This document shows positions 44,720 through 61,700 of a stretch of DNA of 64,000 bases, piece by piece. The DNA is taken from contig OX359247.1 of NCBI GenBank assembly GCA_947179485.1, forward strand, positions 54,409,131-54,473,130, written 5' to 3'. Both the position numbers and the translations under genes were made by a program. The notes beneath the pieces were generated by a model. It had not been told where the DNA came from. It searched no databases and saw only the letters and a list, made by a program, of their open reading frames with translations. Numbering within the stretch: position 1 is the stretch's first letter; each line of letters starts with the position of its first letter. Origin of the DNA: Allacma fusca (taxonomy: Eukaryota > Arthropoda > Collembola > Symphypleona > Sminthuridae).

Positions 44720-47700
44720 TTAATCGTCTTCCTCGGACGGCCCTCTGAGGGTGCCTGTCTCCTCCTCTCCTTCCGCTAGTGTTCGGAATGATATAACTGC
44801 GAATCTATTTTCGGATAAAATCTCCGGGTCCCATCTTGCACGTGCTGATCTTTCCCATAACTGATCCATTAGCCTTCTATGCTCTACAGGGTTTGTTATG
44901 GAAAGATAGCTGGTTCTCTGTTGTGTCACTGGGTCTCTCCTGAGTTCTTCCTGAATAAAATCATGTCCAAGGTCTCGGAAAACTATTTCGATTCCTGTTC
45001 GACCTCTGAGGGTTCGTATGAGATTTATTAGATCAGGTTCATCTGGTCTTCCATCAATGACAACTGATCGCCATTGGGGTGTTTGGAATCGGTCTATCGC
45101 ACTTGGTATCATGTGTATTGGTGTTATTCCTGGTCGTCTTTCATTTCTTGGAGATAGTTGATATGGTTTGTAACTTGGTCCATCTCCACGGTTGCTAATT
45201 TGCTCCCGAATCCTATGAAAGTGTTCTCTTTGCCAGATTCGTATCGTGACAAGTTCGTTTAGGTCTCTGAAAGAACCTGTTTTCCGGGGTTGTCTTAGGG
45301 TGGCTACTCCTCCTTTTAGTTTTCTAGCGTATAGGGTAGTTGGCTTTTGGCCTTCTCCCGCTAGTTTCATTGCGAATATCCAGTCTTCCCATTGTCCTAG
45401 TTCTTCCTCTATGTCGTCGATTGTATTGGGTTGACTGCCGCTGCTCTGATTTATTGCTCCGAATTGTCGCCACTCCTGAATTGCCGCGTCCTGATGGTAA
45501 AGAGTTATGATCCTTTCGGTCATACTCGCAAATTCTTGAAAACTTAGCATGTGTATGGGTATACTCGCTAGTTGTTGTAGAGCTTTCTCTCCACGTCCGG
45601 TGATGGCGTCTCCTCTGAGCAGGAAACTATTTATCCATATTTCTTGCTCTCGCCAGGTTGGCTGAGTTCCTATGTCAAACCACATCTGAGTAATCAATCG
45701 GCGTAGCTCGGTTCCTGTGAGCCCTTGCATTACTCCCTGATGTTCCCGACATGTTAAATATGTTGGTATTTGATGATTATCAATACCTCTCTGACCATGG
45801 AACAATGTTGTCCAAAGTCTCGGTATCATTTCCCCTGGTGAGATGTTCATGTCTCCTGCCATCGTTTCCAGACGGGTGTTTTCCATTGGTACGTTTCTTC
45901 GACTTTGCCCGTATAGGATGAGCAGGTCTCGCTCCCTTGGGTCTAGTCTGCGATAATCTGTGGGATGGTCCATTGCATCATACAGCAATGCCCTTCTTTC
46001 CCGGATTAATTCTCCGTGATTGTTGTAATCTATTCCTGCCTGGTGTTCGGCGTATTCTATATTTGATTCATGAGCATCTGTTCTGGGTTCGCTTAAGGTG
46101 CTAAGCGCCCTTTGTAACTGCTCGAGTCGTAGTTGAGGTGGTTGAGTAGGTTGCTGGTGGATGTCAAGTCTCTCGATAAATGTCTCCCTGTACATTCTGT
46201 TGAGCCATCTCACTAAATTTTGTTCTGGACTGTTGGTTGAACGATGTGAGATATTATATGTTGGAAATCTCTCTGGGTCGATGGTAGATTTCTGATAACA
46301 ATGAGGACACATGGTGGATCTTTCCCTGGTGTCCATGTTGTTGCTGAAGTAGTTGGTCCTCCTGGAGTACTGTGCTTCTATCCGGCTATGGCGTTCGTCT
46401 CCAGATATGTCTTCCAGTACTTGATCCAGAAATCTCGGCGGTGAGTGGTCCAATGGGTCGTTGGCCCTTTCCACCATATTTCTCACTTGAAGTCGTACCG
46501 GATCCAGTTGGCTGTATAACTGTGTCTCGTTCGGGTTGGTAAAGATGACTATTTCCGCATCTTCGTCTTCCCAACTTGGTGCTACCATCCATCCACGGAC
46601 TCCTATGTAAAATGATACGTGAGCTAAATCAACGAATCTTACATCAGGTGAGTCAGGTTGTGTCAGTGGATCTTCCGGTGCTGCAGTTGGTGGGTTTTCC
46701 TGGCGTTCTTCCTTGAACTCCACCTTTCGTTGACGTTGTCTAGCTCGTCTGGACTTCAGTTTGTCTTCCATGGGTTGTATAGGTTGTCCCGCTATCGTGG
46801 ATGGTCCTGGTGATGGTGATCTTGATCCTCGTCTGTCCCTAGTATCGTTGAATATTACAGTCCTAATGGGTGAGTATACTCTAACCCTGGGTCGTTCACT
46901 ATCTGGCTCTGGACCTCGTTGTCGTCCTCTATACCGGAATGTACAGTTTGGAGCATTGTCTCTTCCGTACAATCTGTCCAACTCTGGTCTGCTCCTTCGG
47001 ATGTATTGTACAGGTATATCCTTTTGTCTTTGCCAAGCTTCATGAGCTGCTAACTTGGTCTTTGGTCTTACGGGTGGCTTATGGCCGTGTTTGAGTGGGC
47101 AGTATTCACATCTGGTCTTTACCCACTTGCTGTTTGTCTCGTTGTCTGACGAACTATCTATCTGATGTTCTGATGGTGGCTTCTCCTCGTCGTCTAAGAC
47201 TTCCTCCTTGATTATATTCAATGATGTCCCGGCTCCTTCTTCTTGAGCCTCTACAGCTTGTTCCGTCGGCACAGCCGATTCCTCTTCTGAGGCCAAAACC
47301 GGCCCTTCTGCTCCCTCTGTTTTTCGTGGGTGGCTTCTTCCGGGGTCACCTTTCCGTATTGGGTCCTGGTTCCCTCCAAAGTCCATTCCGACGGACGTGC
47401 CAATATAGATTACCATTCTGAGGGTAAATCGTACAAGCTGTTGAATAATCCCTGTAGGTCTTCCTGACGATGAGTGAGCCTCCTCTTCCTCAATCCGTGC
47501 CAGCATAAGCTGTAGCTGTTGTTTCAAGAATTGTCTGCTATAACTGACGGGTGACCATGCGTTGGTCGGTCCTACGAATGCATCTCGCCTCTGCCGTTCT
47601 CTGGCTGCTCGTTCCGACGTTCGCTGGAAGAGTGGGTGGGTTTGTGAGACGTTGGCGTGTGCCTTTGTCTCCCATCCCTTGAGTTCTTCTTCCTCAAGAT

Positions 47701-50700
47701 GGTCAACTCCGCTGTATGTGTGTGGTATGAGCAAAACTATCGTCCAGTTTGCTTCCGTGATTGTCGTTGCTAGTGCGAAGTGTACAACTTCACCTATTGC
47801 AATTTCCTCGGTGGGGTGAACGTAGTCTTCCCCTTTGGTGATACTGTGAGGGTTGTTCTGCATTTGGCGTTGTAAGTTATTTATCTGGTCTTTCGCCAAG
47901 ATACTCCGCCTGGTGCGTTTATGTATGGTTTTGAGTCCCAAAATTTGGATGACTTTGTCAATGAATTTCCCGTATTGTATTTCATATTCCTTCCAAATTT
48001 CGTATTTGGTTTGTAGTGGTAGTTGAATTGGTTTCGTTATTAAGTCCATTGCGACTGACTGTAAAGTTCTTGTTGTTAGATGGTAACCGTCACGTATTGC
48101 TTGTGACATTAACCAAATAGCTTGCGGTAATTTCCGTTGGTCTCGAATCTTTTGTCGTCGTTCCTCTTCCTCCGAAGTGGGTTCAGGAGCATGTCGTCGC
48201 TCTCTCCCGTTTTCGGATTCTTCCGCGTCCATTTCTTTGCCTAAAGCTTGGTTCCATACTTTGGCTACCGAAGTTTCGTTGAGGTAATGAGCATTCCGTT
48301 GGATATCACCTGGTAATGCTATTAAGTTCGGAGATATTTCTGTTGCTGTTGGATCTTCCTTAAGAAAATCTTCTAACTCTTTTTCCTCACTGGCATTGAC
48401 GGGCATTATCATCCAGATGGGTCGTTGGTCTGGTAATTGGGACTCAATGAGTACCCAGTCCTGTGGTATTTTGACTGTTTTTAGTGGTTTGTTCCATCTC
48501 CTGACTGCACCTAGGATTGAGCTGGTATATACTCCTACTATAACCATTCCTGTGGTACACATGCCTACAGCTCCTGCTACTCCTCGTACTACTCCATTCT
48601 GCCAGAGTCGGTGCGCTGTAGCTGAACCAAAACCTTGGTACCGTACGGCTGAATTTCCGACCGGTGGGCATTCCCGTTGGCTGTAAGGGTCATAGTGTCC
48701 GATTTCCTCCGAGTCTTCCTTATTTTCGAAGTCTAGGCTGACATGGTCAAAGCCTCTTAGACTCGTTGGATTCTCAGTTTCCAATCGGGTCCACCACTGG
48801 TAATGTGATGCCCGGGTTGTTGGATATGGTCCGTAGTGTCCCGTCAATTCCTTTCTCAATTGGGATTGTCCTACAGCAGATGTTATTAAACCGAACATTA
48901 ATAAAAATGATAACCAACTGTTACCGAGGTAAGGTATGGGTCCTCCTCGTCTTCCTCCCCCTCCACGTCCCATCTCCGGCGTGTGAGGTGGCGTTTGAAT
49001 TGAAGAAGTTGGTTGTCCTGGCTCCTCGTCTTCACTGAGGATGACGGTTCCGTCTTGGGGTGAGTTGGCAAAATCAGCCAATGAAAGCTGGTGGTTATTA
49101 ACAATTTCCGTTGTTTCCGAAGTTATTGATGATTCTCGATCTTTGGGTCTTCTCTTTGATCTGATCACTTCAAAGTCCTCTGAGCTACTGCTCTGGTCGT
49201 TGTGTTGTTCAGCTATAGATAGCTCAGATGTTGCAACTTCGACATTCTGTCCTGGTGAGGGTGGCATTCCCGTTGCCATTCCTGTTGGGCTTGCAGTTTC
49301 TGGACCATTTCGTTTTTCCTGAGCGAGCAAACGCTCTAGCTCTCCGGATGTTGCTGTTGACGTTGGAATGTTTGTTGGTTCAAAGTGTGCTGGAGGTAAT
49401 TCTCTGGTTTGAAGGTCTATTTTTGACTCAGCACATACCAAGTGAAAGTCGTTATCATTTCTCCACTTTATCCATTCCTGGCGGTGGCGTGCTAATTCTT
49501 TCATTAATCCTTCCTTCTGTTTTTTCGCACTGTCTGCGTTGACATTCTGTCTGGCAAGGTTGCGGATGATTTCCCCGAGATCTCTAATTCGGTTTACCAT
49601 CTCCTCGTGCTTCCCTGCCTTCCTGGAGTCCTCTCCGATTTTTATGATATTCGACTGCCATTTCGCCGGTGGTTGGGTTGGTGCTGTGTTCTGTCCGAAT
49701 AGCTCTAAGATGGTCATCTGAGCCTCCTTCTTGGCCTTCTTCTCCTTCTTTGCACGTTTCTTTGCATGATGTTCACATTCCTGTTGTACCACTGGTCCAT
49801 TGTCGGTTGCAATTACTTGTCGTACCCTTTTACATCCTTTCCTACTACAGGTTTGGATGGGTACTGTCTCTTCCTCTTCTGAATCTGAAGAAGATTCATT
49901 GGCGGTATCTCTGTCCGCTGTTGTCGCTGTGGCTGTTTCCTCGCTCCATAGTGTCACTGCTACTGGTGGTGGAGTCACTATAGGTACTTCCACTGGTCTT
50001 TCTCTTTGAGCGATGCAAACTGCACGCTGTGGTTTAGGTGGTTCACTATTGACCGGTATTGTTGGCGGTGGCATTTTTGTAACCGCTGTATAACTTAAAG
50101 CTGGAGCTGCTATGGGTGCTGTCAGTATTGACTCCCTCTCCATTCGATCCTTATAATCTTTCGCTGCTGGTGATAGAAATGGTGAAGGCGGTGGGGTTGA
50201 CTCTCTCCTGCTCCTTGACCGTGCTGGACTGTCATAGCGACTCCTTGACCTGTCGTCTTCCCGTCGCTTCTTCCTCTCCGATGACGACTCCGTCTCTCGC
50301 TTCCTGGTCCGGCTGTCCTTAGAGCTATGTCTTTCCCTTGAACTTTCTCTTGAGCTTCTAGGATGCCTGCTCGAACTTTCTCCGTTGGTGATGGCCCGCC
50401 CGCGGCCTCTCCCGGCTGGTACCATGTGCGCCGAGTAGGCTGCGAATCTCGGAGGTTCCCTTCGTCGGTCCTCCAAGTTCCCTCGTCTCAGATCGGGTCC
50501 ATAGTTGTCGTCAATACGTCTATTGATTCTATGGGCTACGTCCTCGACCTGTTCTTCATGTTGCGGTAACCATTCACTAATTTCGGGGATGTTGACCCGG
50601 GTAACTCCACAAATAGGGTCGGCTCCCATCACCTTCCGGGATGAGCTTCGACTTGTCTTGCCCCGTTCGTATTGAAGGCCTGGAGTAAATGCCCATGGAT

Positions 50701-51280
50701 CATGGTCATAATCTCCCCTTGGATTCTTTTGTCCGGGCACATCCTTTTCTTGCCTGTAATTTTGGACTAGCCATGGATCATCTGGTTGTCTATTACGTGT
50801 TCTACAAATAGGAATCTGTCGTCGTATGGGAGTGGGATTAAATTCTTGCCCTTTAAAAAGGTAAACAAGATCGTCTGGCGCTCGCTCGCCTCTGTCAACT
50901 TCCACCTGCTGCTCCGGAAAATTTATTGACCCGCAAAAGTGCGGTTCTCGTCGTAATATACGATAATCTAGTGTTAACTCTCTTGGCTTTCTGAGAGCTC
51001 CGATGAGTACTGAATGAGTTACGATTTCTCGTCCATCTCGTCCTTGGATGATAATCCTGTGTGGTAACTTCCCGTCTACTCTGAGAACAACTTCCAGTCG
51101 TCCCGTATCTGAGTTTGGTAATATTTTTGCTTGTGGTATTTCCACTTCAGTTTGACTCACGTATTGGGTCCAATAACGTGGTCGATCGTCGTCGTCCCTG
51201 TCGACGGCGGGTAGGGCGTCTTGGCGTGGAGTCTCGTTGGTTCGAGACCCGGATGCACGTGACCCTCTGTTCTCTGACAT
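44720..51280 (-). CDS. ORF3: 2186-aa protein of unknown family in the retroelement
   Basis: One uninterrupted frame, and the largest post-pol ORF I would expect in such an element. Visible parts: an N-terminal folded-looking region (about 35-170); an Arg/Ser-rich SR-like tract (about 300-370); a Cys/His-Lys segment (CSRKGCKR ... CEHHAKK, about 480-520); a membrane-type block (about 789-1300) with a signal-like helix (WLSFLLMFGLITSAVG), a second helix (VAGAVGMCTTGMVIVGVYTS), several N-glycosylation motifs (NAS, NET, NWT, NVS), a furin-like RTRR near 1121 and a helix near 1280-1300; then CEYC (about 1388), CPHC (about 1656) and a long helical C-terminal half. An acceptor-like tatcttcaaccag abuts the ATG, fitting a spliced subgenomic mRNA. 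Function unknown; an envelope-related core with nuclear-type N-terminus is my inference. Confidence 0.7.
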   Translation of the reverse strand: MSENRGSRASGSRTNETPRQDALPAVDRDDDDRPRYWTQYVSQTEVEIPQAKILPNSDTGRLEVVLRVDGKLPHRIIIQGRDGREIVTHSVLIGALRKPRELTLDYRILRREPHFCGSINFPEQQVEVDRGERAPDDLVYLFKGQEFNPTPIRRQIPICRTRNRQPDDPWLVQNYRQEKDVPGQKNPRGDYDHDPWAFTPGLQYERGKTSRSSSRKVMGADPICGVTRVNIPEISEWLPQHEEQVEDVAHRINRRIDDNYGPDLRRGNLEDRRREPPRFAAYSAHMVPAGRGRGRAITNGESSSRHPRSSRESSRERHSSKDSRTRKRETESSSERKKRREDDRSRSRYDSPARSRSRRESTPPPSPFLSPAAKDYKDRMERESILTAPIAAPALSYTAVTKMPPPTIPVNSEPPKPQRAVCIAQRERPVEVPIVTPPPVAVTLWSEETATATTADRDTANESSSDSEEEETVPIQTCSRKGCKRVRQVIATDNGPVVQQECEHHAKKRAKKEKKAKKEAQMTILELFGQNTAPTQPPAKWQSNIIKIGEDSRKAGKHEEMVNRIRDLGEIIRNLARQNVNADSAKKQKEGLMKELARHRQEWIKWRNDNDFHLVCAESKIDLQTRELPPAHFEPTNIPTSTATSGELERLLAQEKRNGPETASPTGMATGMPPSPGQNVEVATSELSIAEQHNDQSSSSEDFEVIRSKRRPKDRESSITSETTEIVNNHQLSLADFANSPQDGTVILSEDEEPGQPTSSIQTPPHTPEMGRGGGGRRGGPIPYLGNSWLSFLLMFGLITSAVGQSQLRKELTGHYGPYPTTRASHYQWWTRLETENPTSLRGFDHVSLDFENKEDSEEIGHYDPYSQRECPPVGNSAVRYQGFGSATAHRLWQNGVVRGVAGAVGMCTTGMVIVGVYTSSILGAVRRWNKPLKTVKIPQDWVLIESQLPDQRPIWMIMPVNASEEKELEDFLKEDPTATEISPNLIALPGDIQRNAHYLNETSVAKVWNQALGKEMDAEESENGRERRHAPEPTSEEEERRQKIRDQRKLPQAIWLMSQAIRDGYHLTTRTLQSVAMDLITKPIQLPLQTKYEIWKEYEIQYGKFIDKVIQILGLKTIHKRTRRSILAKDQINNLQRQMQNNPHSITKGEDYVHPTEEIAIGEVVHFALATTITEANWTIVLLIPHTYSGVDHLEEEELKGWETKAHANVSQTHPLFQRTSERAARERQRRDAFVGPTNAWSPVSYSRQFLKQQLQLMLARIEEEEAHSSSGRPTGIIQQLVRFTLRMVIYIGTSVGMDFGGNQDPIRKGDPGRSHPRKTEGAEGPVLASEEESAVPTEQAVEAQEEGAGTSLNIIKEEVLDDEEKPPSEHQIDSSSDNETNSKWVKTRCEYCPLKHGHKPPVRPKTKLAAHEAWQRQKDIPVQYIRRSRPELDRLYGRDNAPNCTFRYRGRQRGPEPDSERPRVRVYSPIRTVIFNDTRDRRGSRSPSPGPSTIAGQPIQPMEDKLKSRRARQRQRKVEFKEERQENPPTAAPEDPLTQPDSPDVRFVDLAHVSFYIGVRGWMVAPSWEDEDAEIVIFTNPNETQLYSQLDPVRLQVRNMVERANDPLDHSPPRFLDQVLEDISGDERHSRIEAQYSRRTNYFSNNMDTRERSTMCPHCYQKSTIDPERFPTYNISHRSTNSPEQNLVRWLNRMYRETFIERLDIHQQPTQPPQLRLEQLQRALSTLSEPRTDAHESNIEYAEHQAGIDYNNHGELIRERRALLYDAMDHPTDYRRLDPRERDLLILYGQSRRNVPMENTRLETMAGDMNISPGEMIPRLWTTLFHGQRGIDNHQIPTYLTCREHQGVMQGLTGTELRRLITQMWFDIGTQPTWREQEIWINSFLLRGDAITGRGEKALQQLASIPIHMLSFQEFASMTERIITLYHQDAAIQEWRQFGAINQSSGSQPNTIDDIEEELGQWEDWIFAMKLAGEGQKPTTLYARKLKGGVATLRQPRKTGSFRDLNELVTIRIWQREHFHRIREQISNRGDGPSYKPYQLSPRNERRPGITPIHMIPSAIDRFQTPQWRSVVIDGRPDEPDLINLIRTLRGRTGIEIVFRDLGHDFIQEELRRDPVTQQRTSYLSITNPVEHRRLMDQLWERSARARWDPEILSENRFAVISFRTLAEGEEETGTLRGPSEEDD

Positions 51281-51473
51281 CTGGTTGAAGATAAAATACT
51301 TTGCAGTAATCTGATTTAATGATTGTGTACGTACCTACGTATCGGATTCTCCTTCGACCTTGTCGTATGAGGTAACTAATGAGATTTATACGGTCTCCAA
51401 TCTTGAGATCAATCTCGCTTTGACCAAAACTAACACAGTTTGGTATTGTTGTTAAGTATCTGGTGGTGCTCAT
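51147..51473 (-). CDS. Small ORF bridging the pol tail and ORF3 (108 aa, uncertain)
   Basis: The ATG at 51473 overlaps the stop of the preceding overprinted ORF as ATGA. The first part (MSTTRYLTTIPNCVSFGQSE and on to about residue 65) covers DNA outside pol and ORF3; the basic C-terminus overlaps the start of ORF3 in another frame. It spans a possible 54-nt intron (donor gtacgt after about 51335, acceptor before 51280) that would keep frame. It may instead be leader sequence for ORF3. Confidence 0.3.
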   Translation of the reverse strand: MSTTRYLTTIPNCVSFGQSEIDLKIGDRINLISYLIRQGRRRIRYVGTYTIIKSDYCKVFYLQPDVREQRVTCIRVSNQRDSTPRRPTRRRQGRRRSTTLLDPIRESN

Positions 51474-51733
51474 TCGCTTTCAGACTGATCCAAATCTTCT
51501 CGTCCTTTTTCGGGTACGAGTTGGGTATCGTCTGCTTTCTCCGGTTTCTTCAGCGCTTCCTTCTTGAGATGTTTCCCCTGCTTCTTTAACTCCCGAATTT
51601 CCTCCTGAACTTGTTGAAGTTCCTGTTGGATTTGTACTCGTCGGGTTCTGAGGATCGCTGAATGTCTCTCGGTGGTCTGACGTAGTCGTTCTAATTCTCT
51701 CAGGCCTTCTGGGATTGTCTTTCGTGATGACAT
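51470..51733 (-). CDS. Overprinted coiled-coil ORF 6 (87 aa, +1 frame within pol)
   Basis: ATG-initiated and predicted almost entirely helical: LRELERLRQTTERHSAIL, then a run of Gln/Glu with VQIQQELQQVQEEIRELKKQ, hydrophobics 3-4 residues apart. It overlaps the Ser/Thr-rich Pol tail in the +1 frame and ends 10 bases beyond the Pol stop, in an ATGA overlap with the next ORF. Not recognised by family. Confidence 0.4.
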   Translation of the reverse strand: MSSRKTIPEGLRELERLRQTTERHSAILRTRRVQIQQELQQVQEEIRELKKQGKHLKKEALKKPEKADDTQLVPEKGREDLDQSESE

Positions 51734-54700
51734 CCAATGACCTGTCCCCTTCTGTAGAAAATTCTACAGGTGTGATAATGACTTCTGTATGCGTATCTAC
51801 AGAGTCTTGTCCGGTTTCTTCCTCGGGAACTTCCTGGAACACTTCGTCCTCTTCTGTAGAATTTTCTACAAGGACTTCTCGTTCCGAGGGTTGGTTGAGT
51901 TGTTGGCTAAGCTGTTGGCTGCTCGAATTTGATTCTTCAGAGTATTCTTGGCTCTCTCGGTTTGTTCTATCTCTCTCTCTACTCGTGCTATTGCTTCTCT
52001 GATCCGACTGCCTTGCGCTTGTAGGCTTTGCAGTGTCTGTCTCTGAGCTTCGCTGGGTGGGCTTGGTGTTGAGTTCCACAAAGGGGGGCTCTTCCAAGGC
52101 CTTTTGTTCATCTGAGTGAAGCAATTGTGTCGAAATGTCCGCCTCTACTGAGGGCCAAGGCACCTCAACTCGTGAAGTCGCTTCTGAAGGTCCTTGATTT
52201 CCTGTTTCAATTTGTCCAGGTCTCCCTCTCTCTCTCGTAGGCGGTTGATTAATTCTCGGTTCTGATCCCGAATTGTAAGACTTTGTCTCTCTATACTCCG
52301 TGCTGTCGTCCACATCAAGTTCTGTTGGACTTATCCCTGAACTACTTAATTTCTTAAGAGTTTTAAGGTCACTTTCGTCAATAAGTGGTTGAGTTTCTTC
52401 CTCACCTTCGGATATTACACCTGAGCTGTTTTCAGCTGGTTTATTAAATCCGAAATATCTTCTTTGGCTTTGTGGGTTTCCTGGAGGGTTGCTTTGTGAT
52501 CTTTCTCCAGTTGTTTTAGTTTGCTCAGCACTTCCTGCTGTTCTGAAATCTGATGTAAAATTCTTTGTTTGAGACGAATTTCGTTCTCCTTTACCTTGAT
52601 TAATTGGGCTTGTAATCCCTGGATGATTAGGATTAATTCTCTCTTTGTATGTGTCATCAGTTACTCTGGTTGAACCTCGTCTTGTGATTTCTCCACTTGT
52701 GGGCAGAAACTTGACGTTTGAGGTTTTGTTTCCTGAATTAGCAGTTCCAAAGCTGCGATTCTCTGTTTGATATACTCTTCTTGAGCTGCGTACTTCCAAA
52801 TTTTTATTTGGACTAAATTCCTCTGTTGTTTCAATCCCCTTATCTCGTCCCTGATTTCCTCTAGGGTGTTCATTTACTTTCGAGCGAGTGAAATATGGGT
52901 AATTTTTATCTAAAAATTCCCGATTATCCGAATAATTTCTTGAAGAAAGTTTTCTTCCTTGTGCACTTGACTGCTTGGTAGTACCTTTTCCTCCTTGAGT
53001 GTTATCTTTGTGTTGATGCGATCCCTGGTTTGATTTCTCTCCTTCACTTGGGGTGATTTGAGAGTGTGAGTAATTTTTGTCACAAAATTCTCTCTGTTGT
53101 ATTGGCTGAGCTTGGTCACTTGAAATGTCTGAGCAATTTTCGGATGAAAATTCTCTAGTTATTTCTTCGGTTTGAGCAGGTTGAACTTTGAAAGTCACCT
53201 TCTTGCTCGTAGTTGAACTGTTATCTGAAGTGGTCGAACTCTTAAGAATTGACCGTGGCTGACTCACTGTAACTTTTCCACACTTGTTCCAATTTCGTTT
53301 TGTCACCAATTCCACTATATCGGAATCTAAATCGTAACTATACTCGTCCTCAATGTGTTCTCGCTGCAGGCACTTCTTAAGCCTCTCCACATGGACTTTC
53401 TGTCTCTTTTTAGAATTCCTAAGGTCTTGAATGATATAATTGTCTTTGGCTAAAACTTCTATGACTACAAAGGGTCCTTTGTAAGGGTGAAGAAAGCGTT
53501 CGCTCTTTCCAACTATCCTGGTCGGTGTAAAGACTCGCACTGTGTCTCCGATGTTGAATTTAACGAACCTTCTTTTCCTATCATACCAATCCTTACTGTA
53601 GTCCTGACGTTCCCTTATCTTAGCAATAGCTTTTTCTATTCTAGTAGTGGCTTCCTCAGCACTCATAAAATTTGTGTCGACGCTGCTTAAACACAGTTGT
53701 AAGTTAAAATCATATATGGGTTGTCGCCTAAACATCATAAAATAAGGAGTTTCTTTAGTCACGTCATGGTGACTGCAATTGTAAGCATTTATTAGAAACG
53801 GTAAACAACTGCACCATAATGCTTGCTCTTTTTGAGTATAATGACTCAGCATAGTGCTTATAGTCTGGACCATTCTTTCTATTTGTCCAACACTATTATG
53901 TCTTAATGCTGTAGATGTAGAATGGTTCATGCCTAATCTACGAAGTAATGCTTGAGTGATTTCCGCTCTGAATTCGGATCCTCCGTCACTCAGCAAGTTT
54001 TTAAACAGTCCGTATTTTAAAACTACCTTGTGAAGCAAAAACTCTGCTATCCTGTCAGCAGTTTTATCTGGAATTGCTTCTGCGATCACGAACTTTGAAA
54101 CATAATCCTGTGCGATTATGATGTACTTATTCCCTTTTATGCTAATTTGCATAGGTCCAATGAGATCAATACATAATGCATCTCCTACATTTTCTATCCT
54201 GATTGGATGAAGTAATCCTGCTGGTTTCATTCTCATGGATTTTGCTGCTTGGCAACTTTCACATGACATGACATATTTTGCTACTGAGACGTTCATTTTT
54301 CTCCAAAAATAATTTCTGTTGAGTCTATGAAGCGTTTTCTGGAATCCTAAATGTCCTCCGCATAGGATCCCATCATGAGCTTTTGATAGTAGGAAATTTC
54401 TAAGTACTCGGGGTACGTATAGCTTACGTCCATCTTTATGTACTATAGTAAGAATCCCTTCTCCATCAATTTCATATCGGCTATACTTTTCTTTGTCTTT
54501 CCAATTTAACGTATGCCGCATCTTTATTTTGTCCATGATGAATAAACAATCTGGATCGTCCCTTTGCATCTCCTGCATGTTATGTTCCTCTAACATAGTA
54601 ACTTGCTCTTCATCTTCAAGTATCCTACACACAGGCTTGTGTGTGGAAAAAGTATCTTTGCTCCCTTCGCACCCCGGTAGTGCGTGAGCTCCTGGAACAA

Positions 54701-57700
54701 ATTTTATTGCTCTATTTAATGACATGTCCTCAGTTTTCTGAGCGTCTTTATTTCTTTGGTCTTCATCCTGTGAAAGACATAGTGAATGTGGCGTCCTTTT
54801 ACTTGTCACAACACCCTGCCTTTTCAAAGGTTGAATCTTCCATGATCTTCCATCGGTGAATTTAATTTCACCTTCCTGGATATTTTTCCTCAGCTCTTCT
54901 ACTGTGGTCGCCCGTAGAGAGTAATTATTTTCATTAATTGGATTCTCTGTGGATATGTACGTATGCGACGGCGGAGGGTTTTTGTTTTCCTCCGACTCGC
55001 ATGCTGCAGATCTTCGTTGGATATTTTTCATCCATTCATCCACATCTCTGGAAATTTTCATCGCCTTGATCCGCTGTGGGGTATCAAGATCCGGATTGTT
55101 AGCATATCCTGGACTTTCTGCATCAGGAACTTGATCAATCTTCCTGGCAGATTGTGCAGTGTATGTCTTCAATTGCGAAATAACTTCCTGTTTGAGCTTC
55201 CATTCATCTCCTTTTGCTGACGTTGGATTCCTCCAAGTCTCTTCAAATGCAAACCATTTCTCCTCATCTGTGGGATCGTGTCCGGATGGAATGTGATTTT
55301 CCACACTGACCTTTTCCTGTTTCAGTGTCGGTCGGTCGCATTCCTTTTGGACGTTCCTATCTTCATCCGTGAGTACCAATTTCTTGGCCTCTTTAGGACT
55401 GGCGGGATGGGTGGGCGGGAAAGTTGAGGACTTCTTTTGTGTAGTCTCAGCTGCCTGGCTCACCAGATCCGCTGTTTCCTGATTCTTCAAAGTTTGGTCA
55501 TGGACTTCCGTCTCGGAGTCCACAATCATGGCTGGTGGTAGATGTACAGCTTTTGTTTCAGCCTCACCTGCCCCATCCATTATTGTGAATTCCATTGTGC
55601 TCCGGGTCATCTGCCCTAGGGATTTTGGTGAATCAGTGTCAACCTTCCCATTGGTTGGACTTTGAGACGTTATTGCTGTCGTTGACTTTGGAGTAGGAGA
55701 CCAATCAGTCCCCATTCCAATGTCAGTGATAGTATTTCTGTCAAAATCTTCATGCTCATTTTGAACTTGAGCTTTCTTTGGCGATAGAAATTCTTTCATA
55801 TCTAATTCATTTATTGTTGCATTGTGACGCTCTATATCCTGTATTAGTTTGAGATTTTTCTCGTAGATATACTCATTGGTGTATTTCCAGGTGTTTTCAT
55901 CCTCTAGTGGGTCATCCTCTCGAAATTCGTGGATTGTGATGATGTCATCTACGGATAATTTCCATTCTTTGAGCGCTGAGTAGCTGTGTGTTACTTCATT
56001 TACACGGCTCTTTACGCTCATTGTATGGTTCTCCCAATCCGTTTCCTCCAAATTCGGTTGAGGTACTAAAATTTCCACTTGTGATTTGACTTTACGCCTG
56101 GGTTGACCTTTCAATCTTCCTGACCATGGATTTTGTCGCTGTGGGATTATGGCTTCCTCTTCGTCTGAGGATTGACTTTCGTCATCCGTCCAATATTTTC
56201 CCTTATAGCTTTCCCTGGTCGTAAGGCTGGCTGCACACGCTGGTGGTGGCATTATTATGTTCCCCTGAGGGATTTGTTTTTGCTCTTCCAAAGCGATTTT
56301 GTGCTCTTTGACCGGATCTGGGTCAAATTCGATCACTCGGTCCTCTGTATCTTCCAAATCTTCCTTTGTATAGGGTAATGGCGTTCTGGATAGAAAGTCT
56401 GCATCCAAATGTAATGCTCCTTTCTTGTATGTGACTTGAAAGTCAAATTCCTGTAGTTTATTTACAAACTTACTTATTCGGTGGTTTGGATCTTTTTGTA
56501 ATCGTAGGTAGCACAATGCTAAATGATCTGATCTGATTAAAAATTTCCTCAAATAAAGGTATTGTCTGAATTTGCGAACTGCATATACGACTGCTGCTAG
56601 TTCTAATTCTGTGACTGAGTAATTCTTTTCTGATTGAATTAGTGTCCTTGAAGCATAAGCTATTGGATGTTCTCCTCCATCATCTTGAAGTATACAGCAT
56701 CCTAGTCCTGAAATTGATGCATCTGTATGCAGTATGCAATCCAACTCTGGGTTGAAATGAGCTAGAACTGGCTGTGTCATTAATTTGGTTTTGAGAATGT
56801 TGAAGGCAATTGTTGCATCTGCACTCCATTGGAAGCATCTTATGCGTTTTTGACCTTCAGATTTCCCTTTACTGCCAATCCATGATTGTGAGATGGGACT
56901 AGCAATTTTTGCGAAGTCCTTGATGTATTTTCTGTAGAAACTGCATATTCCGAAAAATCTTCTTGCTTCTGTTTCAGATTTTGGTATTGGCACATGTCTA
57001 ATAGCGTCCACCTTTGCAGGATCTGGACTGGTGCCTTCCCTGGATACTTTAAATCCTAAGACAATTACTTCAAAATATCCGAATTTGCATTTCTTTGGCT
57101 TGAACTTAAAGTTTTTGTTGCTGGCTCTTAACATCAATTCTTCGAGAGATGCTAATTTGTCCAAAAGATGAATTCCGTATGAGATTACATCATCTAAATA
57201 TACCATGGCTCCCCTAAATTTGAGTGAGCCTAGCATTTGATCTGCTGCTCGCTGAAAAGCTGACGGTGCGATCTTGACTCCCATAGGTAGTCGTTTGAAT
57301 GCGTATAATCCATCCTGTGTAATGAAAGAGGTTATAATTTGATCATCCTCGTGTATTAATAGTTGAAAGAAGCCTGACTCCATGTCAAGAGTGTCGAACA
57401 TTGCAGATTTTCCAAATTGCATAAGTATGTCATCTATTCTTGCTAAAGGGTAAACTTGATCTGTGATGGTCTTGTTTAATGCTCGATAATCCACAACTGA
57501 TCTAAATGTTCCGTCTTTCTTTTTGATGAGAAATAGTGGACTGCTGTACGGTCCATTCACTTCCTTAATAATATCTGCATCTAACATCTTTTGTACTTCT
57601 TCTCGTACTTTTTGTCGCTCCATGGGTGAGCAAGGGAAAGGTTTTGCCTGAACGGGTGGATTATTTCCCGTATGAATCCGAATGGGATCAATCCACGCTG

Positions 57701-58739
57701 GTTCTTTCAAATCTCCCTTGTTAAATGCAAAACATTCTGGATATCTTGTCAACAATGCTCGGTACTTAGCTCGTCCTTCTTCATCGAGCTCTTCATTGAC
57801 GTCGAAACAATCGAGCTGTTCTTGTGTGAGCTTTTTGTGAGCATCACGTAATTGGTTGCGTTTGATTTTGATGAGATCAAAATTTTCCTCAGCATGACCT
57901 ATAGCTGTCCGTCCATACATCGTTTGTGGGCATGGGGCTGGATTAAATACATATGCGAAAGGTTCTTCATTTGGTACTACACCTGCGGCTACTAAAAGTC
58001 GCTTGCTGGTGTATAGTTTCTCTGATGGTTGTAAATAAAAATCCTTTTTGATACGTTTTGGAATTTGTATGGGCACTTTCATGTGTCCATAGGCTGGTAT
58101 TGTGACTGCTTTTCGGGTCCTGCACATCATGTTCTTCGGTCCTTTGACTTCATGAAATGAAAAAATTGACCTGACAAATTCTATGTCGGCCTTTTTCTCC
58201 CCGACATAGAGATGAGTATCTCTAGTCATTGGAACTGTTTGAAATCGGTCACTCCGTATTTCATTGTTCTTGTAATCCAACGTTATTCCATAACGTGATA
58301 AAAGATCTTCACCTATGATCATTCGTGGTTCTAGTGTTTCCATCACTAGACCTTTGAATAAAAGTTTTTCACCTTCAATCATCATTGTGAATTTGGTGAG
58401 ACAAATTGGTTTTACCAATTCTGCGTTTGCTACTGCTACTCGCAGAGCGCTTGGAACTTCTTTTATTTCCGCACATCTTGGTACTAAGTTTCTTTGGATA
58501 CAGGATCTTGTTGCTCCTGAATCTAGTAAAGCTGGTATCATCATACTGCATATTTGCACTTGCAAAGTTGACTTGTTGCCATTTGATAAACGACATGGGT
58601 TGAGGTCAATAATTTCTAGTTCTTCGTCGTCTTTTGACTGACTTTCTACTCTAGTTGCTATAATTGCATTCATTCTTTCTTGGATATCTTCAATTACTGG
58701 GGGTGCGTCCCCCTCTGTGAGTTTCCCGACGGATATGGG
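51480..58739 (-). CDS. pol: Pol polyprotein (protease, RT, RNase H, integrase)
   Basis: Replication polyprotein of the retroelement. The frame is open from 58739; the first ATG is 58673 (2397 aa from there) and entry is probably by -1 frameshift from Gag. Numbering from that ATG: retropepsin DSGATRS (Asp51); RT with YLDDV at 492-496; RNase H start HTDAS (649); integrase zinc finger H1441-x7-H1449 ... C1471-x2-C1474; catalytic core Asp1503, Asp1563 and Glu1599, exactly 35 residues between the last two (DD35E); then a GPF-type segment (HPYKGPFVVIEVL). Two oddities: about 600 acidic, low-complexity residues separate RNase H and integrase, and about 650 disordered Ser/Thr/Gln-rich residues follow the integrase, overlapping the +1-frame ORFs. 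All catalytic residues I looked for are present and the frame is unbroken, so it may be recently active. Confidence 0.92.
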   Translation of the reverse strand, partial: PISVGKLTEGDAPPVIEDIQERMNAIIATRVESQSKDDEELEIIDLNPCRLSNGNKSTLQVQICSMMIPALLDSGATRSCIQRNLVPRCAEIKEVPSALRVAVANAELVKPICLTKFTMMIEGEKLLFKGLVMETLEPRMIIGEDLLSRYGITLDYKNNEIRSDRFQTVPMTRDTHLYVGEKKADIEFVRSIFSFHEVKGPKNMMCRTRKAVTIPAYGHMKVPIQIPKRIKKDFYLQPSEKLYTSKRLLVAAGVVPNEEPFAYVFNPAPCPQTMYGRTAIGHAEENFDLIKIKRNQLRDAHKKLTQEQLDCFDVNEELDEEGRAKYRALLTRYPECFAFNKGDLKEPAWIDPIRIHTGNNPPVQAKPFPCSPMERQKVREEVQKMLDADIIKEVNGPYSSPLFLIKKKDGTFRSVVDYRALNKTITDQVYPLARIDDILMQFGKSAMFDTLDMESGFFQLLIHEDDQIITSFITQDGLYAFKRLPMGVKIAPSAFQRAADQMLGSLKFRGAMVYLDDVISYGIHLLDKLASLEELMLRASNKNFKFKPKKCKFGYFEVIVLGFKVSREGTSPDPAKVDAIRHVPIPKSETEARRFFGICSFYRKYIKDFAKIASPISQSWIGSKGKSEGQKRIRCFQWSADATIAFNILKTKLMTQPVLAHFNPELDCILHTDASISGLGCCILQDDGGEHPIAYASRTLIQSEKNYSVTELELAAVVYAVRKFRQYLYLRKFLIRSDHLALCYLRLQKDPNHRISKFVNKLQEFDFQVTYKKGALHLDADFLSRTPLPYTKEDLEDTEDRVIEFDPDPVKEHKIALEEQKQIPQGNIIMPPPACAASLTTRESYKGKYWTDDESQSSDEEEAIIPQRQNPWSGRLKGQPRRKVKSQVEILVPQPNLEETDWENHTMSVKSRVNEVTHSYSALKEWKLSVDDIITIHEFREDDPLEDENTWKYTNEYIYEKNLKLIQDIERHNATINELDMKEFLSPKKAQVQNEHEDFDRNTITDIGMGTDWSPTPKSTTAITSQSPTNGKVDTDSPKSLGQMTRSTMEFTIMDGAGEAETKAVHLPPAMIVDSETEVHDQTLKNQETADLVSQAAETTQKKSSTFPPTHPASPKEAKKLVLTDEDRNVQKECDRPTLKQEKVSVENHIPSGHDPTDEEKWFAFEETWRNPTSAKGDEWKLKQEVISQLKTYTAQSARKIDQVPDAESPGYANNPDLDTPQRIKAMKISRDVDEWMKNIQRRSAACESEENKNPPPSHTYISTENPINENNYSLRATTVEELRKNIQEGEIKFTDGRSWKIQPLKRQGVVTSKRTPHSLCLSQDEDQRNKDAQKTEDMSLNRAIKFVPGAHALPGCEGSKDTFSTHKPVCRILEDEEQVTMLEEHNMQEMQRDDPDCLFIMDKIKMRHTLNWKDKEKYSRYEIDGEGILTIVHKDGRKLYVPRVLRNFLLSKAHDGILCGGHLGFQKTLHRLNRNYFWRKMNVSVAKYVMSCESCQAAKSMRMKPAGLLHPIRIENVGDALCIDLIGPMQISIKGNKYIIIAQDYVSKFVIAEAIPDKTADRIAEFLLHKVVLKYGLFKNLLSDGGSEFRAEITQALLRRLGMNHSTSTALRHNSVGQIERMVQTISTMLSHYTQKEQALWCSCLPFLINAYNCSHHDVTKETPYFMMFRRQPIYDFNLQLCLSSVDTNFMSAEEATTRIEKAIAKIRERQDYSKDWYDRKRRFVKFNIGDTVRVFTPTRIVGKSERFLHPYKGPFVVIEVLAKDNYIIQDLRNSKKRQKVHVERLKKCLQREHIEDEYSYDLDSDIVELVTKRNWNKCGKVTVSQPRSILKSSTTSDNSSTTSKKVTFKVQPAQTEEITREFSSENCSDISSDQAQPIQQREFCDKNYSHSQITPSEGEKSNQGSHQHKDNTQGGKGTTKQSSAQGRKLSSRNYSDNREFLDKNYPYFTRSKVNEHPRGNQGRDKGIETTEEFSPNKNLEVRSSRRVYQTENRSFGTANSGNKTSNVKFLPTSGEITRRGSTRVTDDTYKERINPNHPGITSPINQGKGERNSSQTKNFTSDFRTAGSAEQTKTTGERSQSNPPGNPQSQRRYFGFNKPAENSSGVISEGEEETQPLIDESDLKTLKKLSSSGISPTELDVDDSTEYRETKSYNSGSEPRINQPPTRERGRPGQIETGNQGPSEATSRVEVPWPSVEADISTQLLHSDEQKALEEPPFVELNTKPTQRSSETDTAKPTSARQSDQRSNSTSRERDRTNRESQEYSEESNSSSQQLSQQLNQPSEREVLVENSTEEDEVFQEVPEEETGQDSVDTHTEVIITPVEFSTEGDRSLDVITKDNPRRPERIRTTTSDHRETFSDPQNPTSTNPTGTSTSSGGNSGVKEAGETSQEGSAEETGESRRYPTRTRKRTRRFGSV
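51866..52111 (-). CDS. Overprinted coiled-coil ORF 5 (81 aa, +1 frame within pol)
   Basis: A Pro-rich start (about 20 residues) then a helical stretch RQTLQSLQAQGSRIREAIAR and VEREIEQTERAKNTLKNQI with heptad-like spacing. Same +1 frame as its neighbours. Confidence 0.4.
   Translation of the reverse strand: MNKRPWKSPPLWNSTPSPPSEAQRQTLQSLQAQGSRIREAIARVEREIEQTERAKNTLKNQIRAANSLANNSTNPRNEKSL
52145..52315 (-). CDS. Overprinted coiled-coil ORF 4 (56 aa, +1 frame within pol)
   Basis: Starts MWTTARSIERQSLTIRDQNR and continues as a leucine-zipper-like helix with L/I at 26, 33, 36, 40, 43, 47 and 50 (core RLREREGDLDKLKQEIKDL). Below the usual ORF-length cut-off, but in the same frame and pattern as the other five. 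Confidence 0.4.
   Translation of the reverse strand: MWTTARSIERQSLTIRDQNRELINRLREREGDLDKLKQEIKDLQKRLHELRCLGPQ
52415..52657 (-). CDS. Overprinted coiled-coil ORF 3 (80 aa, +1 frame within pol)
   Basis: Almost wholly helical: LILIIQGLQAQLIKVKENEI, then LSKLKQLEKDHKATLQETHK. Its ATG follows the stop of the preceding small ORF with only CTG between them (TAA CTG ATG), a spacing compatible with reinitiation. Confidence 0.4.
   Translation of the reverse strand: MTHTKRELILIIQGLQAQLIKVKENEIRLKQRILHQISEQQEVLSKLKQLEKDHKATLQETHKAKEDISDLINQLKTAQV
52661..52873 (-). CDS. Overprinted coiled-coil ORF 2 (70 aa, +1 frame within pol)
   Basis: MNTLEEIRDEIRGLKQQRNL then YIKQRIAALELLIQE, a charged helix with I/L spaced 3-4 apart, and a short non-helical tail. 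Same +1 frame. Confidence 0.4.
   Translation of the reverse strand: MNTLEEIRDEIRGLKQQRNLVQIKIWKYAAQEEYIKQRIAALELLIQETKPQTSSFCPQVEKSQDEVQPE
52910..53119 (-). CDS. Overprinted small ORF 1 (69 aa, +1 frame within pol)
   Basis: First of the series in the +1 frame. It is polar and Lys/Glu-rich (MTKLSQYNRENFVTKITHTL at the start) and less clearly coiled-coil than the five that follow, so it is the most likely of the set to be chance. Confidence 0.25.
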   Translation of the reverse strand: MTKLSQYNRENFVTKITHTLKSPQVKERNQTRDRINTKITLKEEKVLPSSQVHKEENFLQEIIRIIGNF

Positions 58740-61700
58740 CTAGACTGTCTTTTGTGTGGGCAATTTCTCCTCAGGTGGCCCATCTCTCCACATCCGAAAC
58801 ATTTTAGGTCGGTTTGAGTGGATTCTAGCGCCAATTGTCCCGGTATCGGTTGTGTCTGCTCCTGGCGGTCTGGTTGATTTCTCCAGGAGTTGTTTCTGTC
58901 GTTGCTTTGGCTGTTCCGGTCCCTGGAGTTAGTTCTACTCCTGTTGTTATTGTTGTTGTACTGTTGGGGTCGCTGACCTCCTTGGTTATTGTTTGGCTGG
59001 TAACCCTGGTTCTGGTAACCTTGTGGGTTGGCCTGAATTTGTTGCATGCCAGGGTTGGTGTATCCTGCATTTTGCCCTTGACCGTATCCTTGTTGTGGTG
59101 CATATCCTTGAGCTGGTCCGTACCCTTGAGTGGGTGCATAACCTGGAAACGGTGCATAACCCTGTTGTGGTGGGTACCCTTGATTCGGATTAAACCCTTG
59201 AGGTGGCATAAAGCCTTGAGTTTGGTTAAATCCTTGGCTGTTATAGCCATTGTAGGATTGGTTGTATCCTTGGTTCATCTGTTGGTCATTCCACTGACGA
59301 TTTCCTTGGTTGTTAGGGTTATTGTTATAGTATTGTCGGTTCGGACTTTGTCTGGATCCGAAATTTTGGTTCCGCTGCGGGTAACCTTGGTTGTTGGAGC
59401 TGTTGCCATCATTTCTGTACTGAGGCCTACTCCTATCTTGATTATTGTAGAATCTCTCAGGTGTTGGAGATCTACCTCGGTTCCCATAATTTCTTCGGTC
59501 ATCATACCCTTGGTTGTTACGTCCCCTGTCCGGGTAGTTGCTATTGTTGCTGTAACCTGGGCTGGAATTTCGTGAGTTGTTGAAGTTTCCCTGACCTGGA
59601 CTTCGTCCTCGTTGGTCATTAGGTCTATTTTCAGGTCTCCGATAGTCCTGTTGTTCTCTTACTGCAGCTATTTTCACTACAGTTGTTTCCGCTGGAACTG
59701 GTTTCATTCCGGAGGTCAATTTCTCCAACATTTCTTGGACTTTGGCAAATCTTGTTTCAATAGATTCCGCGCCGTCCGTCTTTCGGTCTTCATCATACTG
59801 TTTTATTCCCTCTATGAAATCTGCTACAGTTCCTGCTGTCCATCCTCGGCAGAAAACTATGTATTCGGATGTTAAACCTGCGCGTAAGAGTCTGATTTTC
59901 TCCAGTTCGGGCATAAATCTGTCGACTCTATTGATTAGTGCTAATTTCGCATCTATGTATGCGCATGGATCTTCATCTGTGTTCATCTTTCGCTTTTCCA
60001 TTAGCGTACGTATCATTTGGTCGGTGATACTGTACCTTATTAGAAATTCCTCCCTGAATTCGTCCCAGTTAATGGTGTCGTAAGGTAGTTCCTCATGTAG
60101 TCTTCGTTCGGCAATCCAATTTCTGATCCAATCCCTGACGGGTGGGTCAAAGATGATCTGTACGTACTGCATCCTGGTTATGATGGTATCTCCTCCGAAC
60201 CTGTTGGTCTGGAGTTCGGCTGTTGCGAAGGCTGTCTCTGGGTCATCTACACCCGGTTTGAATTCTACTTTGGGAAACATGAGGGCGGTCATGTCGTCGT
60301 CCAGATGTCTCCTTGGAATTATTCGTACCTGTTCTTGGTCTGCAACTTCCTCAATACGTATTCCCTGATTGCGATTAATTGGTACGTATGGGTTGATGAT
60401 GTTAACGTTGACCTGGTTAAAGAAATTATTTCTGTTCACAATCTGTCTATTCCTCCAGTTGTCGAAGGCCTCGAAGTCGTGAGGGTTACTTGAGTTGCTA
60501 CTACTGGAGCTGGATGAGGAACTACTTCCTCCGGAACTTCCGGGGTCACTCCTTGCTCTCTGTCTGCCTCCGATGTGTCTACCTCCTCTTGAGCCTCTTC
60601 GACCTGGATTTGACCTTGATTGAGATGGTCGCTGGTTGTAGGAATTGTTGTTATTAGCCCCTCTCGGCTGGTTTCCTCTCCCTGATCCACTTGGTCCTGG
60701 GCCTGGTGGTCTGGGTTGGTTATTTCCAATTTGACGGCGTGCTCGTAAGGGTTTACGTCTCTTTCTGACTTGAGTGAGTATGACTTGAGTTTCCGGACTA
60801 AGGTCTTGAAGTCGGATTCTTGGGAAGAAGTGAGTTTCTCCGGTGTTATCCACAAATCGAACTTCCTCTTGTAGTTCTTCGTCTCTTTCGATGGCTCTAA
60901 ATGCAGCGTCGTAGGCGTCGTCTATGGGAATTCTTATGGTAAATTGACCTGGTACTTCTGGGATAATGAAGTCCTCTTCGTCAATTCCAATAAAAATATG
61001 GTCTGTCTCTTCACTAGACTGTGCACTGCTATGCTGACCACTCTCACGTCTCGGAGTGTCTCTCTGAATGATTCGCTCTACTTCCTCTTCACTAGACGTA
61101 TCCGTCAGGATTTCGACGCTACGGTCGTGAACTAATCTGCTCAACGCCTCTTGGTGGTCGTATTCGTTCTCGATGTTTTCCAAGAAGCCTGGTGGTACTC
61201 TCTGCCTACGAATGCCGTTGGGTAGACTGATGTGTCTATGATAGAGCCTAAAATCGGGTGCGATATAGCTAGTAACTTGATTCGGGTCTACCGATCTTTG
61301 AGCTAGTATCCTCCAAAAGGTAAATATGGGATTGGTGCTCAGAACAATTTCTTCGTGTTCTGCTCTGGTAGCTGCGAATGCCTCAAAATCAGAGTCTCTA
61401 GTTGGTCTGAACCTTCGTTGTATTATACCGTCCCTTCTATTGAAGTAAATCAGACGTCTCACTTGACCTGTCCAAGTCGCCTCGTTCTCCACTTCCTGGA
61501 TTCTAGATCTGTCCTGTCTTCGGGCGATCTTAGAGTATTGTCTCACTGTTATCCTGCTTGGTACTAACTCGTCTTCGGTTGCTTCGTTCTCGCTGGTGTA
61601 TACTCTGCCACTTGGTCCTGTCCAAATATTCACTCCGTATTGTAAGTCATCAAGCCAATTGACTGTACCTTGACTTGTGGTTGGAGTTGTTGTTACTCGA

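Follow-up and report, generated by a model that had tools for sequence, protein, structure and literature searches.

Five small open reading frames, probably separate genes, overprinted on the pol tail of a giant Ty3/gypsy-type element in Allacma fusca

A 64,000-nucleotide stretch of the genome of the collembolan Allacma fusca (Symphypleona; assembly GCA_947179485.1, contig OX359247.1; hereafter the window) carries on its minus strand a 28.8 kb long terminal repeat (LTR) element of the Ty3/gypsy type, whose pol gene (51480-58673, minus strand) encodes protease, reverse transcriptase (RT), RNase H and integrase and then a Ser/Thr/Gln-rich tail of about 600 codons. Overprinted on this tail are five ATG-started open reading frames (ORFs A to E, 56-87 codons), all on the minus strand and sharing the +1 frame with respect to pol, which stays open throughout their region. 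The explanation that we favour overall, with a probability of roughly 0.7, is that A to E are real, separate, overprinted genes of a young giant Ty3/gypsy-type element and that they are translated by leaky scanning. Judged part by part from the sequences compared below, A to D are almost certainly genes, ORF E is very probably one, and serial leaky scanning is fairly likely to be their main route of expression.

Along the element the series runs from ORF A (52661-52873; 70 aa) through ORF B (52415-52657; 80 aa), which starts 3 nt past the stop of A in the junction TAA-CTG-ATG, to ORF C (52145-52315; 56 aa), ORF D (51866-52111; 81 aa) and ORF E (51470-51733; 87 aa), the weakest case of the five, whose stop overlaps the start of the following ORF4 in an ATGA at 51473. 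B and C are spaced by 99 nt and D and E by 132 nt; the pol frame is the constrained one in gap B-C (52331-52414) and the more constrained one in gap D-E (51764-51865). A previous reading of the sequence alone (the sequence-only reading) had described six consecutive ATG-started ORFs in one +1 frame over an open pol frame, with both of these junctions; five of the ORFs, their common frame and the two junctions were confirmed, while the proposed sixth ORF (53119-52910) was rejected as a gene, the +1 segment 53158-52910 having no Met codon, no coiled-coil signal and no constraint (normalised +1 ratio, defined below, of 1.16). Because frame conservation switches at the ORF borders and each ORF has its own ATG and stop, each of A to E is most simply read as a translated unit.

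The conservation of these features was evaluated among genomic copies. A search of the genome (392.7 Mb in 91 contigs, with the window at C10:54409131-54473130) with the tail gave 127 candidates, and 40 sequences were scored, namely the window and 39 other copies that are 94-97% identical and were aligned to it with their flanks over 4.15 kb each. Length changes among the copies were rare: the window copy is without 3 nt at 53092 that 39/39 others carry, L030 has one extra base at 52916 and is frameshifted for pol, with 39 pol-frame stops, and five copies (L017, L018, L022, L032 and L033) differ in length outside the ORFs or at the alignment ends. All five ATGs and all five stops were present in 40/40 sequences, the stop codon being invariant in A (TAA), D (TAG) and E (TGA; 40/40 each) and varying only between stops in B (TAA in 38, TGA in 2) and C (TAG in 30, TAA in 10). 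Loss of the +1-frame ATGs and stops in other copies, which the sequence-only reading had named as grounds for giving up the genes, was thus not found. Premature +1 stops occur in A in one copy (L030) and in E in two (L046 and L047), and pol-frame stops within the tail occur in 4/39 sequences with L030 left out (L015, L017, L022 and L033).

In this overlap, pol codon position 3 is position 2 of the +1 frame, and pol position 1 is its position 3. Segregating sites at pol positions 1/2/3 among the 40 sequences numbered 63/40/144 in the pol body (54999-53400), 13/8/24 and 31/27/40 in the two segments upstream of A (53399-53160 and 53159-52875), 52/26/21 in A and B, 51/22/21 in C and D, 31/19/22 in E, 6/6/16 in gap B-C and 6/8/12 in gap D-E, and the pattern of A to D differed significantly from that of the pol body (p = 4e-14) and from that of the gaps (p = 5e-6). 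Across 19 non-overlapping nearest pairs of sequences, the corresponding differences were 179/58/49 in A to D, 18/34/64 in the gaps and 118/82/243 in pol. Nonsynonymous/synonymous ratios (N/S) were calculated without L030, each distinct change being counted once relative to the window and the ratio divided by its expectation from the base-change spectrum. The normalised N/S of the +1 and pol frames was 0.24 and 3.26 in A, 0.42 and 1.33 in B, 0.23 and 12.2 in C (the latter resting on a single pol-synonymous change), 0.32 and 2.03 in D, and 0.31 and 2.2 for A to D pooled. The order was reversed in the gaps, with 2.70 for the +1 frame and 0.28 for pol in B-C and 1.49 and 0.67 in D-E, and the pol body gave 0.27 for pol; in sliding windows of 120 nt the constrained frame likewise changes over close to the ORF borders, from pol to +1 and then to pol again. 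No change that creates or removes a stop was seen in the +1 frame of A to D (0 vs 13.3 expected), and 5 stop-related changes vs 11.7 expected were seen in the pol frame over A to E, suggesting that the pol frame there is kept open but little more. On these comparisons we read the pol frame over A to D as doing, for the most part, little more than staying open, with islands of conservation in the gaps, and we regard A to D as secure. For ORF E, with a +1 ratio of 0.49 over 51733-51600 and 0.74 over 51599-51483, constraint probably acts on both frames or on part of the ORF only, and the case for it is supported by its conserved start and stop, its coiled coil and its moderate N/S.

The sequence-only reading had called five of the ORFs coiled-coil-like. 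In a COILS-type scoring, whose matrix and Gaussian parameters were not taken from a source, B, C, D and E scored high (P 0.96-1.00), with strong coils in C and D, and A scored weakly (P 0.04), so that four of the five are clear and we are confident that B to E are coiled coils. The scores are kept across copies (minima of 1.43, 1.79, 1.75 and 1.68 for B to E; 1.07-1.18 for A). The +1 frame contains 203 coiled-coil residues, compared to 32.6 ± 28.2 when synonymous codons were permuted under an unchanged pol protein, 8.3 ± 16.5 when the codon usage of the pol body was applied and 11.7 ± 18.8 when codon order was shuffled (0/1000 in each control). The coils therefore depend on the particular synonymous codons used, and codon-shuffled sequences, the other ground on which the proposal could have been abandoned, do not reproduce them. 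In the reverse control, with the +1 proteins kept and their synonyms permuted, the pol frame acquired 26.9 ± 3.5 stops (minimum 15 in 2000) compared to one observed over the segment, its own terminator, and its openness is thus not due to chance. Stop counts in the +1 frame alone are weak evidence (10 observed vs a mean of 13.4; 59/1000 as low or lower). We also scanned the five alternative frames of gag, pol and ORF3 in 37 overlapping 300-codon windows, a scan that reached only 51924 and so had ORF E outside it. A coil signal of at least 25 residues appeared in 4/37 windows, two of them in the pol tail (52 residues, 10/200 shuffles as high; 140 residues, 0/200) and two overlapping ones in gag (31 residues, 1/200 shuffles each as high).

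The predicted proteins A to E have masses of 8.3, 9.4, 6.8, 9.2 and 10.3 kDa, A being acidic and B to E basic. AlphaFold2, run for ORF D on an alignment of 15 rows (the window, the diverged copy L070 described below and 13 copies), gave one helix over residues 21-73, with a predicted local distance difference test score (pLDDT) of 97-98 over residues 21-60. Comparison of ORF D with the PDB gave four matches by sequence, the best at E 0.17, and none by fold at E <= 0.001, and Pfam returned for A to E only sub-cut-off matches, mostly to coiled-coil families. The description of the region as a cassette of diversified coiled-coil mini-proteins over a low-complexity frame holds for a cassette, of five members instead of six and with A as a weak coil. 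The common origin implied by "diversified" was not borne out: pairwise protein similarity among A to E reached at most z = 2.7 relative to shuffles and may stem from shared coil composition, and at the DNA level only the pair C-D beat its 100 shuffles (26 vs 23).

The distribution of ATGs bears on how the ORFs might be translated. No frame between 53390 and 51474 contains an ATG other than the starts of A to E (5 vs 17.8 ± 4.0 expected under a first-order Markov model), and the next two, with no others down to 51280, are the starts of ORF4 and of ORF3. The seven starts, from A to E through ORF4 to ORF3, have T, C, T, C, T, C and C at -3 (40/40) and A, A, T, A, T, A and T at +4, with no G in 40/40. 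By comparison, the starts of the gag core (60292), of pol (58673) and of a 241-aa ORF (44147) in the window have G, A and A at -3. A start without a purine at -3 and without G at +4 is classed as weak in the passage of PMC5902531 on start contexts, and the consecutive ORFs free of internal ATGs and the weak contexts seen here are those of systems of the type of rice tungro bacilliform virus (RTBV). Within the ORF region, 2 new ATGs were counted among the copies vs an expectation of 14.1 (Poisson p 9e-5); upstream of A there were 2 vs 9.1 and in a pol control 12 vs 11.2. In the ORF region the control triplets AAG, GTG, ACG, ATA, GAT and AGT were near expectation, and TAG gains were low (8 vs 18.8), as expected for two open frames. 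Counted as potential ATG gains in the context of the window, the values were 8 vs 22.8 in the tail (of 514), 12 vs 11.8 in pol (of 259) and 2 vs 4.1 in ORF3 (of 82). It is the selection against ATGs inside the ORFs that sets leaky scanning apart from reinitiation alone and from a separate mRNA for each ORF. The routes suggested originally, reinitiation or a spliced RNA, are refined in that the ATG pattern favours leaky scanning, for which a spliced or otherwise subgenomic RNA is still needed.

In the mechanism that we propose, an RNA would begin, by splicing or at an internal promoter, at about 53.4-52.9 kb, and ribosomes would scan from its 5' end through the starts of A, B, C, D, E, ORF4 and ORF3, most of them passing each weak start and some initiating there. 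A single RNA would then yield the short products of A to E together with the basic protein of ORF4 and the 2186-aa protein of ORF3. By analogy with the small accessory genes that complex retroviruses have at their pol-env junction, the coiled-coil proteins might act as small accessory oligomerising adaptors, either for the element or against a host factor, a role that we put forward as speculation; if true, co-expressed small coiled coils could form a combinatorial hetero-oligomer.

A second ATG desert lies upstream of gag. In window-extended coordinates, in which positions above 64000 are read from the adjoining stretch L048, only one ATG (61650) is found in 64299-60293, the 4.0 kb ahead of the gag-core start, whose G at -3 and A at +4 make a moderate context. 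Among 20 copies, of which one aligned along just 1668 nt and another carries an approximately 2-kb rearrangement, the gag frame was constrained over 64000-60201 (0.11-0.45 in 13 bins), no sign of an overlapping gene was found across the same interval, and ATG gains were depleted (19 potential vs 42.3 expected, of 943 changes). Because 20 ATGs lie upstream of this desert, in 65302-64001, an RNA starting or spliced near 64.3 kb would be needed, and the second desert may follow the same scanning logic as the pol tail. We tentatively suggest a seven-cistron leaky-scanning series in an animal LTR retroelement, with five cistrons within pol and the same logic reused before gag, where the desert leads to a better start; if true, this would make it the longest case of serial leaky scanning that we know of. 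Further observations were made in this part of the element. The first ATG of the long gag frame is preceded by about 715 nt (65975-65260) devoid of ATGs, and the leader has a strong donor-like AAG|GTGAGT at 65877, with the 9-mer unchanged in 6/8 copies and the GT in 7/8. An ATG-free open frame of 161 codons overlaps the gag leader at 60439-60921; in 60700-60401 the +1 frame had 0 stop changes vs 3.4 expected but an N/S of 2.32, and this frame is probably not coding.

Relatives outside the main family were sought by an RT-motif pattern avoiding the codon of the main family, which gave 31 places, a few of them still main family, and one diverged, decayed copy in two pieces (L069 and L070), whose RT motif is about 2.5 kb nearer to ORF3 than that of the window. 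L070 is 74% identical to the window in the tail and 77% in the stretch ahead of it, and tblastn recovered C, D, E and ORF4, with frames unchanged, at 68%, 71%, 44% and 65% amino acid identity. ATGs align with the starts of all four, and the ATGA overlap is present too; C has a stop near its start, the ATG of D is no longer in frame with the rest of that ORF, and E is interrupted by an internal stop. Differences from the window at pol positions 1/2/3 were 20/14/10 in C (61 each), 40/18/23 in D (of 93), 5/4/12 in gap B-C (of 27) and 11/7/13 in ORF4 (of 64-65), and those of C, D and gap B-C agree with the frame pattern within the family. A search with the L070 D protein, in which all 147 candidates were scored, gave 121 genomic matches, two places being in two pieces; with the list read by eye, 116/121 have no internal stop and about 106 share the 92-codon stop-to-stop frame of the window.

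Several results weigh against our reading or parts of it. ORF E shows no flip of codon positions in the independent pairs (39/27/54) and does not show the expected pattern relative to L070 (26/34/21, of 93-94). In L070, moreover, A is not seen and B is represented by its end alone; this copy has no clear pattern in its part of B (12/12/10, of 31) or in gap D-E (6/12/10, of 34), carries a purine at -3 of its ORF4 start, and has four ATGs beyond the starts in its decayed tail. Synonymous permutation at a fixed pol protein gave a mean of 7.9 ATGs, with 6 counted and 414/2000 permutations as low or lower, so that the argument from ATGs depends on the Markov control together with the copy variants. 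The leader ahead of the proposed RNA has a normal ATG density (38 in 3.1 kb), which rules out plain scanning from the 5' LTR unless splicing or bypass intervenes. Splice-site scoring, with matrices not taken from a source, gave acceptors near the cassette (best 9.4) that are no better than those in pol (best 10.7) and did not place a junction near the cassette.

Some alternatives keep the same genes and change only their expression. Termination and reinitiation along one RNA would be helped by the 3-nt distance between A and B, by the ATGA overlap of E and ORF4, found in L070 as well, by the shortness of A to E and ORF4, and by starts and stops kept in 40/40 sequences. Pure reinitiation, however, offers no reason for the avoidance of ATGs (2 vs 14.1) or for seven weak starts, and the 99 nt between B and C and 132 nt between D and E also speak against it; we consider it unlikely, and a mixture of reinitiation and leaky scanning is possible. 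Lentivirus-like expression of each gene from its own alternatively spliced mRNA appears improbable. Acceptor-like CAG|ATG sequences at the starts of D and ORF3, another 18 nt before E, and the leader's strong donor-like AAG|GTGAGT (65877) speak for it, but cassette acceptors score no better than those of pol with the matrix used (9.4 against 10.7), the AG ahead of D is lost in L070 (CAT ATG), and the leader donor is unchanged as a 9-mer in 6/8 copies, its GT being lost in one, L073. Splicing alone would also leave the weak starts and the ATG avoidance inside the ORFs unexplained.

Other alternatives would do away with separate genes. That all five ORFs share one frame, +1 to pol, would fit C-terminal parts of frameshifted pol products made at several +1 shift sites, a very improbable arrangement given that each ATG is kept in 40/40 sequences though its Met is dispensable for frameshifting, that in-frame stops separate the ORFs from one another, and that the interval from the preceding stop to the ATG of D shows no +1 preference (N/S 0.56 vs 0.60 for pol; 14 changes). 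A once-continuous +1 coiled-coil protein, now broken and with pol grown over it, would account for coils in a row in one frame. Such a relic would not stay so conserved as the ORFs, ATGs and stops are at present, with no stop changes inside A to D in 39 sequences (L030, excluded, has one in A) and no internal stop of D in 116/121 genomic matches, and we find this origin hardly credible. Finally, the tail is A-rich and stop-poor in +1, and codon-order shuffles easily give long +1 ORFs (mean longest 131.7 codons vs 93 observed), as would be the case if, in place of genes, there were side effects of a pol tail that is purine-rich and of low complexity, or a signal of RNA structure. The coil controls (0/1000), variation that tracks synonymy in the +1 frame with a reversal close to the borders of the ORFs, and the exchange of the B and C stop codons solely for other stops leave this a next to negligible probability, and a by-product of pol composition is refuted for A to D by the codon-position and N/S results among copies. 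Overall, both checks named in the sequence-only reading, copy conservation and shuffled coils, came out in its favour, and its interpretation of overprinted coding sequences is supported.

The element spans 40185-68964 in window-extended coordinates. Its 3' LTR (40185-40754, minus strand, 570 bp) and its 5' LTR (L048:4395-4964, beyond the window, 570 bp) are 99.8% identical, which points to a recent insertion, and have the ends TGTTACG...CGTAACA, the TG...CA paired-LTR structure of Ty3/gypsy elements (Metaviridae). Pfam placed RVP at residues 34-132 of pol, RVT_1 at 383-543, RT_RNaseH at 642-743, Integrase_H2C2 at 1420-1479, rve at 1498-1589 (32.4 bits, just under the 32.6 cut-off) and Integrase_p58_C at 1733-1767, giving the Ty3/gypsy order of protease, RT, RNase H and integrase. 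A protein search with pol returned 108 proteins, none close and mostly Ty3/gypsy-type polyproteins at 22-41% identity, most matches spanning only about 20% of the query. The pol tail also contains AT-rich near-palindromes at 53122-53165, 53068-53094 and 52895-52924, which coincide in the pol frame with a repeated REFxxxNYS-like motif, and GTAGAA/TTCTAC pairs at 51855-51870 and 51752-51769. Upstream, the gag core with a Pfam zinc knuckle (58694-60292, minus strand) lies within a longer open frame reaching back to 65302. Downstream, on the same strand, ORF4 (51147-51473; 108 aa) lies in the pol frame just past the pol stop and encodes a very basic, strongly constrained protein (ATG 40/40; N/S 0.20 ahead of its overlap with ORF3 and 0.66 within it), for which there was no Pfam match and an unusable AlphaFold2 model (mean pLDDT 41). 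ORF3 (44720-51280; 2186 aa), the last ORF of the ATG series, has an N/S of 0.12 over 51146-50880 and its ATG in 40/40; it is followed by the 241-aa ORF (43422-44147, minus strand). Neither ORF3 nor the 241-aa ORF matched a Pfam family above cut-off, envelope or other, a protein search with ORF3 found no relative, and a scan of viral contigs found no relative of the element. With 121 ORF-D matches, most of them without stops, and LTRs 99.8% identical, this giant element family looks recently active. The surrounding locus holds copies of a UDP-glycosyltransferase gene at 1-22500 and L048:5726-7606, in long repeats that in the window are 12.6-15 kb apart and 63-95% identical; one of these frames in the window shows 100% identity to an Allacma fusca protein over 96% of the query, and among the repeats, at 12384-13289, lies a fragment that we take to be copia-type.

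Complex retroviruses carry comparable accessory clusters, such as lentiviral vif-vpr-tat-rev-vpu and the pX region of human T-cell leukaemia virus, which overlap pol or env only partly and use splicing. Similar to these, the Allacma element appears to encode several small proteins in other frames where pol ends, ahead of a large ORF, with five constrained small ORFs at the pol end and no Pfam family above cut-off in ORF3 or the 241-aa ORF; the retroviral accessory genes are not all coiled coils, and no sequence relation between the element with A to E and these clusters was found. In proposed expression, the closest likeness is with RTBV and badnaviruses, for which the relevant passages of PMC5902531 and PMC3542737 describe leaky scanning through consecutive AUG-free ORFs, with weak or moderate contexts, no internal AUGs and a large last ORF. 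Those are plant pararetroviruses (Caulimoviridae) with three ORFs over about 900 nt, whereas the series in the Allacma element has seven ORFs, each ATG-started, across about 2.1 kb; five lie nested within pol of an animal LTR element, and start use is predicted from sequence. Among giant elements, the planarian Burro is likewise Ty3/gypsy-type, near 30 kb and rich in extra coding capacity; the passages of PMC6431247 that describe it place BIR, ankyrin, MATH, BCL2-like and other domains in its polyprotein and do not mention nested +1 ORFs. Pfam found no Burro-type domains in pol, the gag core, ORF3, the 241-aa ORF or 1236 codons upstream of the gag core, a scan that left out 434 codons in L048. 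Plant LTR elements also have extra ORFs between pol and the 3' LTR, which according to the corresponding passages of PMC7264820 are sense or antisense ORFs beside pol and not several small overprinted ones; the words "overlapping" and "coiled" are absent from that text. The passages on Troyka in PMC12440569 mention no extra ORFs, and among the papers listed in searches of open-licence full text none was seen to describe an LTR element whose pol tail holds several small overlapping ORFs.

The arrangement is a variant of overprinted accessory genes combined with leaky scanning and not a new principle. With five fully nested genes in one foreign frame and constraint that switches at their borders, it is an unusually clean natural case of overprinting and of the way in which additional genes can be accommodated in a polymerase tail of low complexity. 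The arrangement suggests that accessory-gene clusters like those of complex retroviruses can be carried by giant animal LTR elements, clusters that are missed when only the longest frame is kept. ATG deserts may serve as a simple, genome-searchable mark for scanning-dependent polycistronic RNAs and make the proposed mechanism directly testable.

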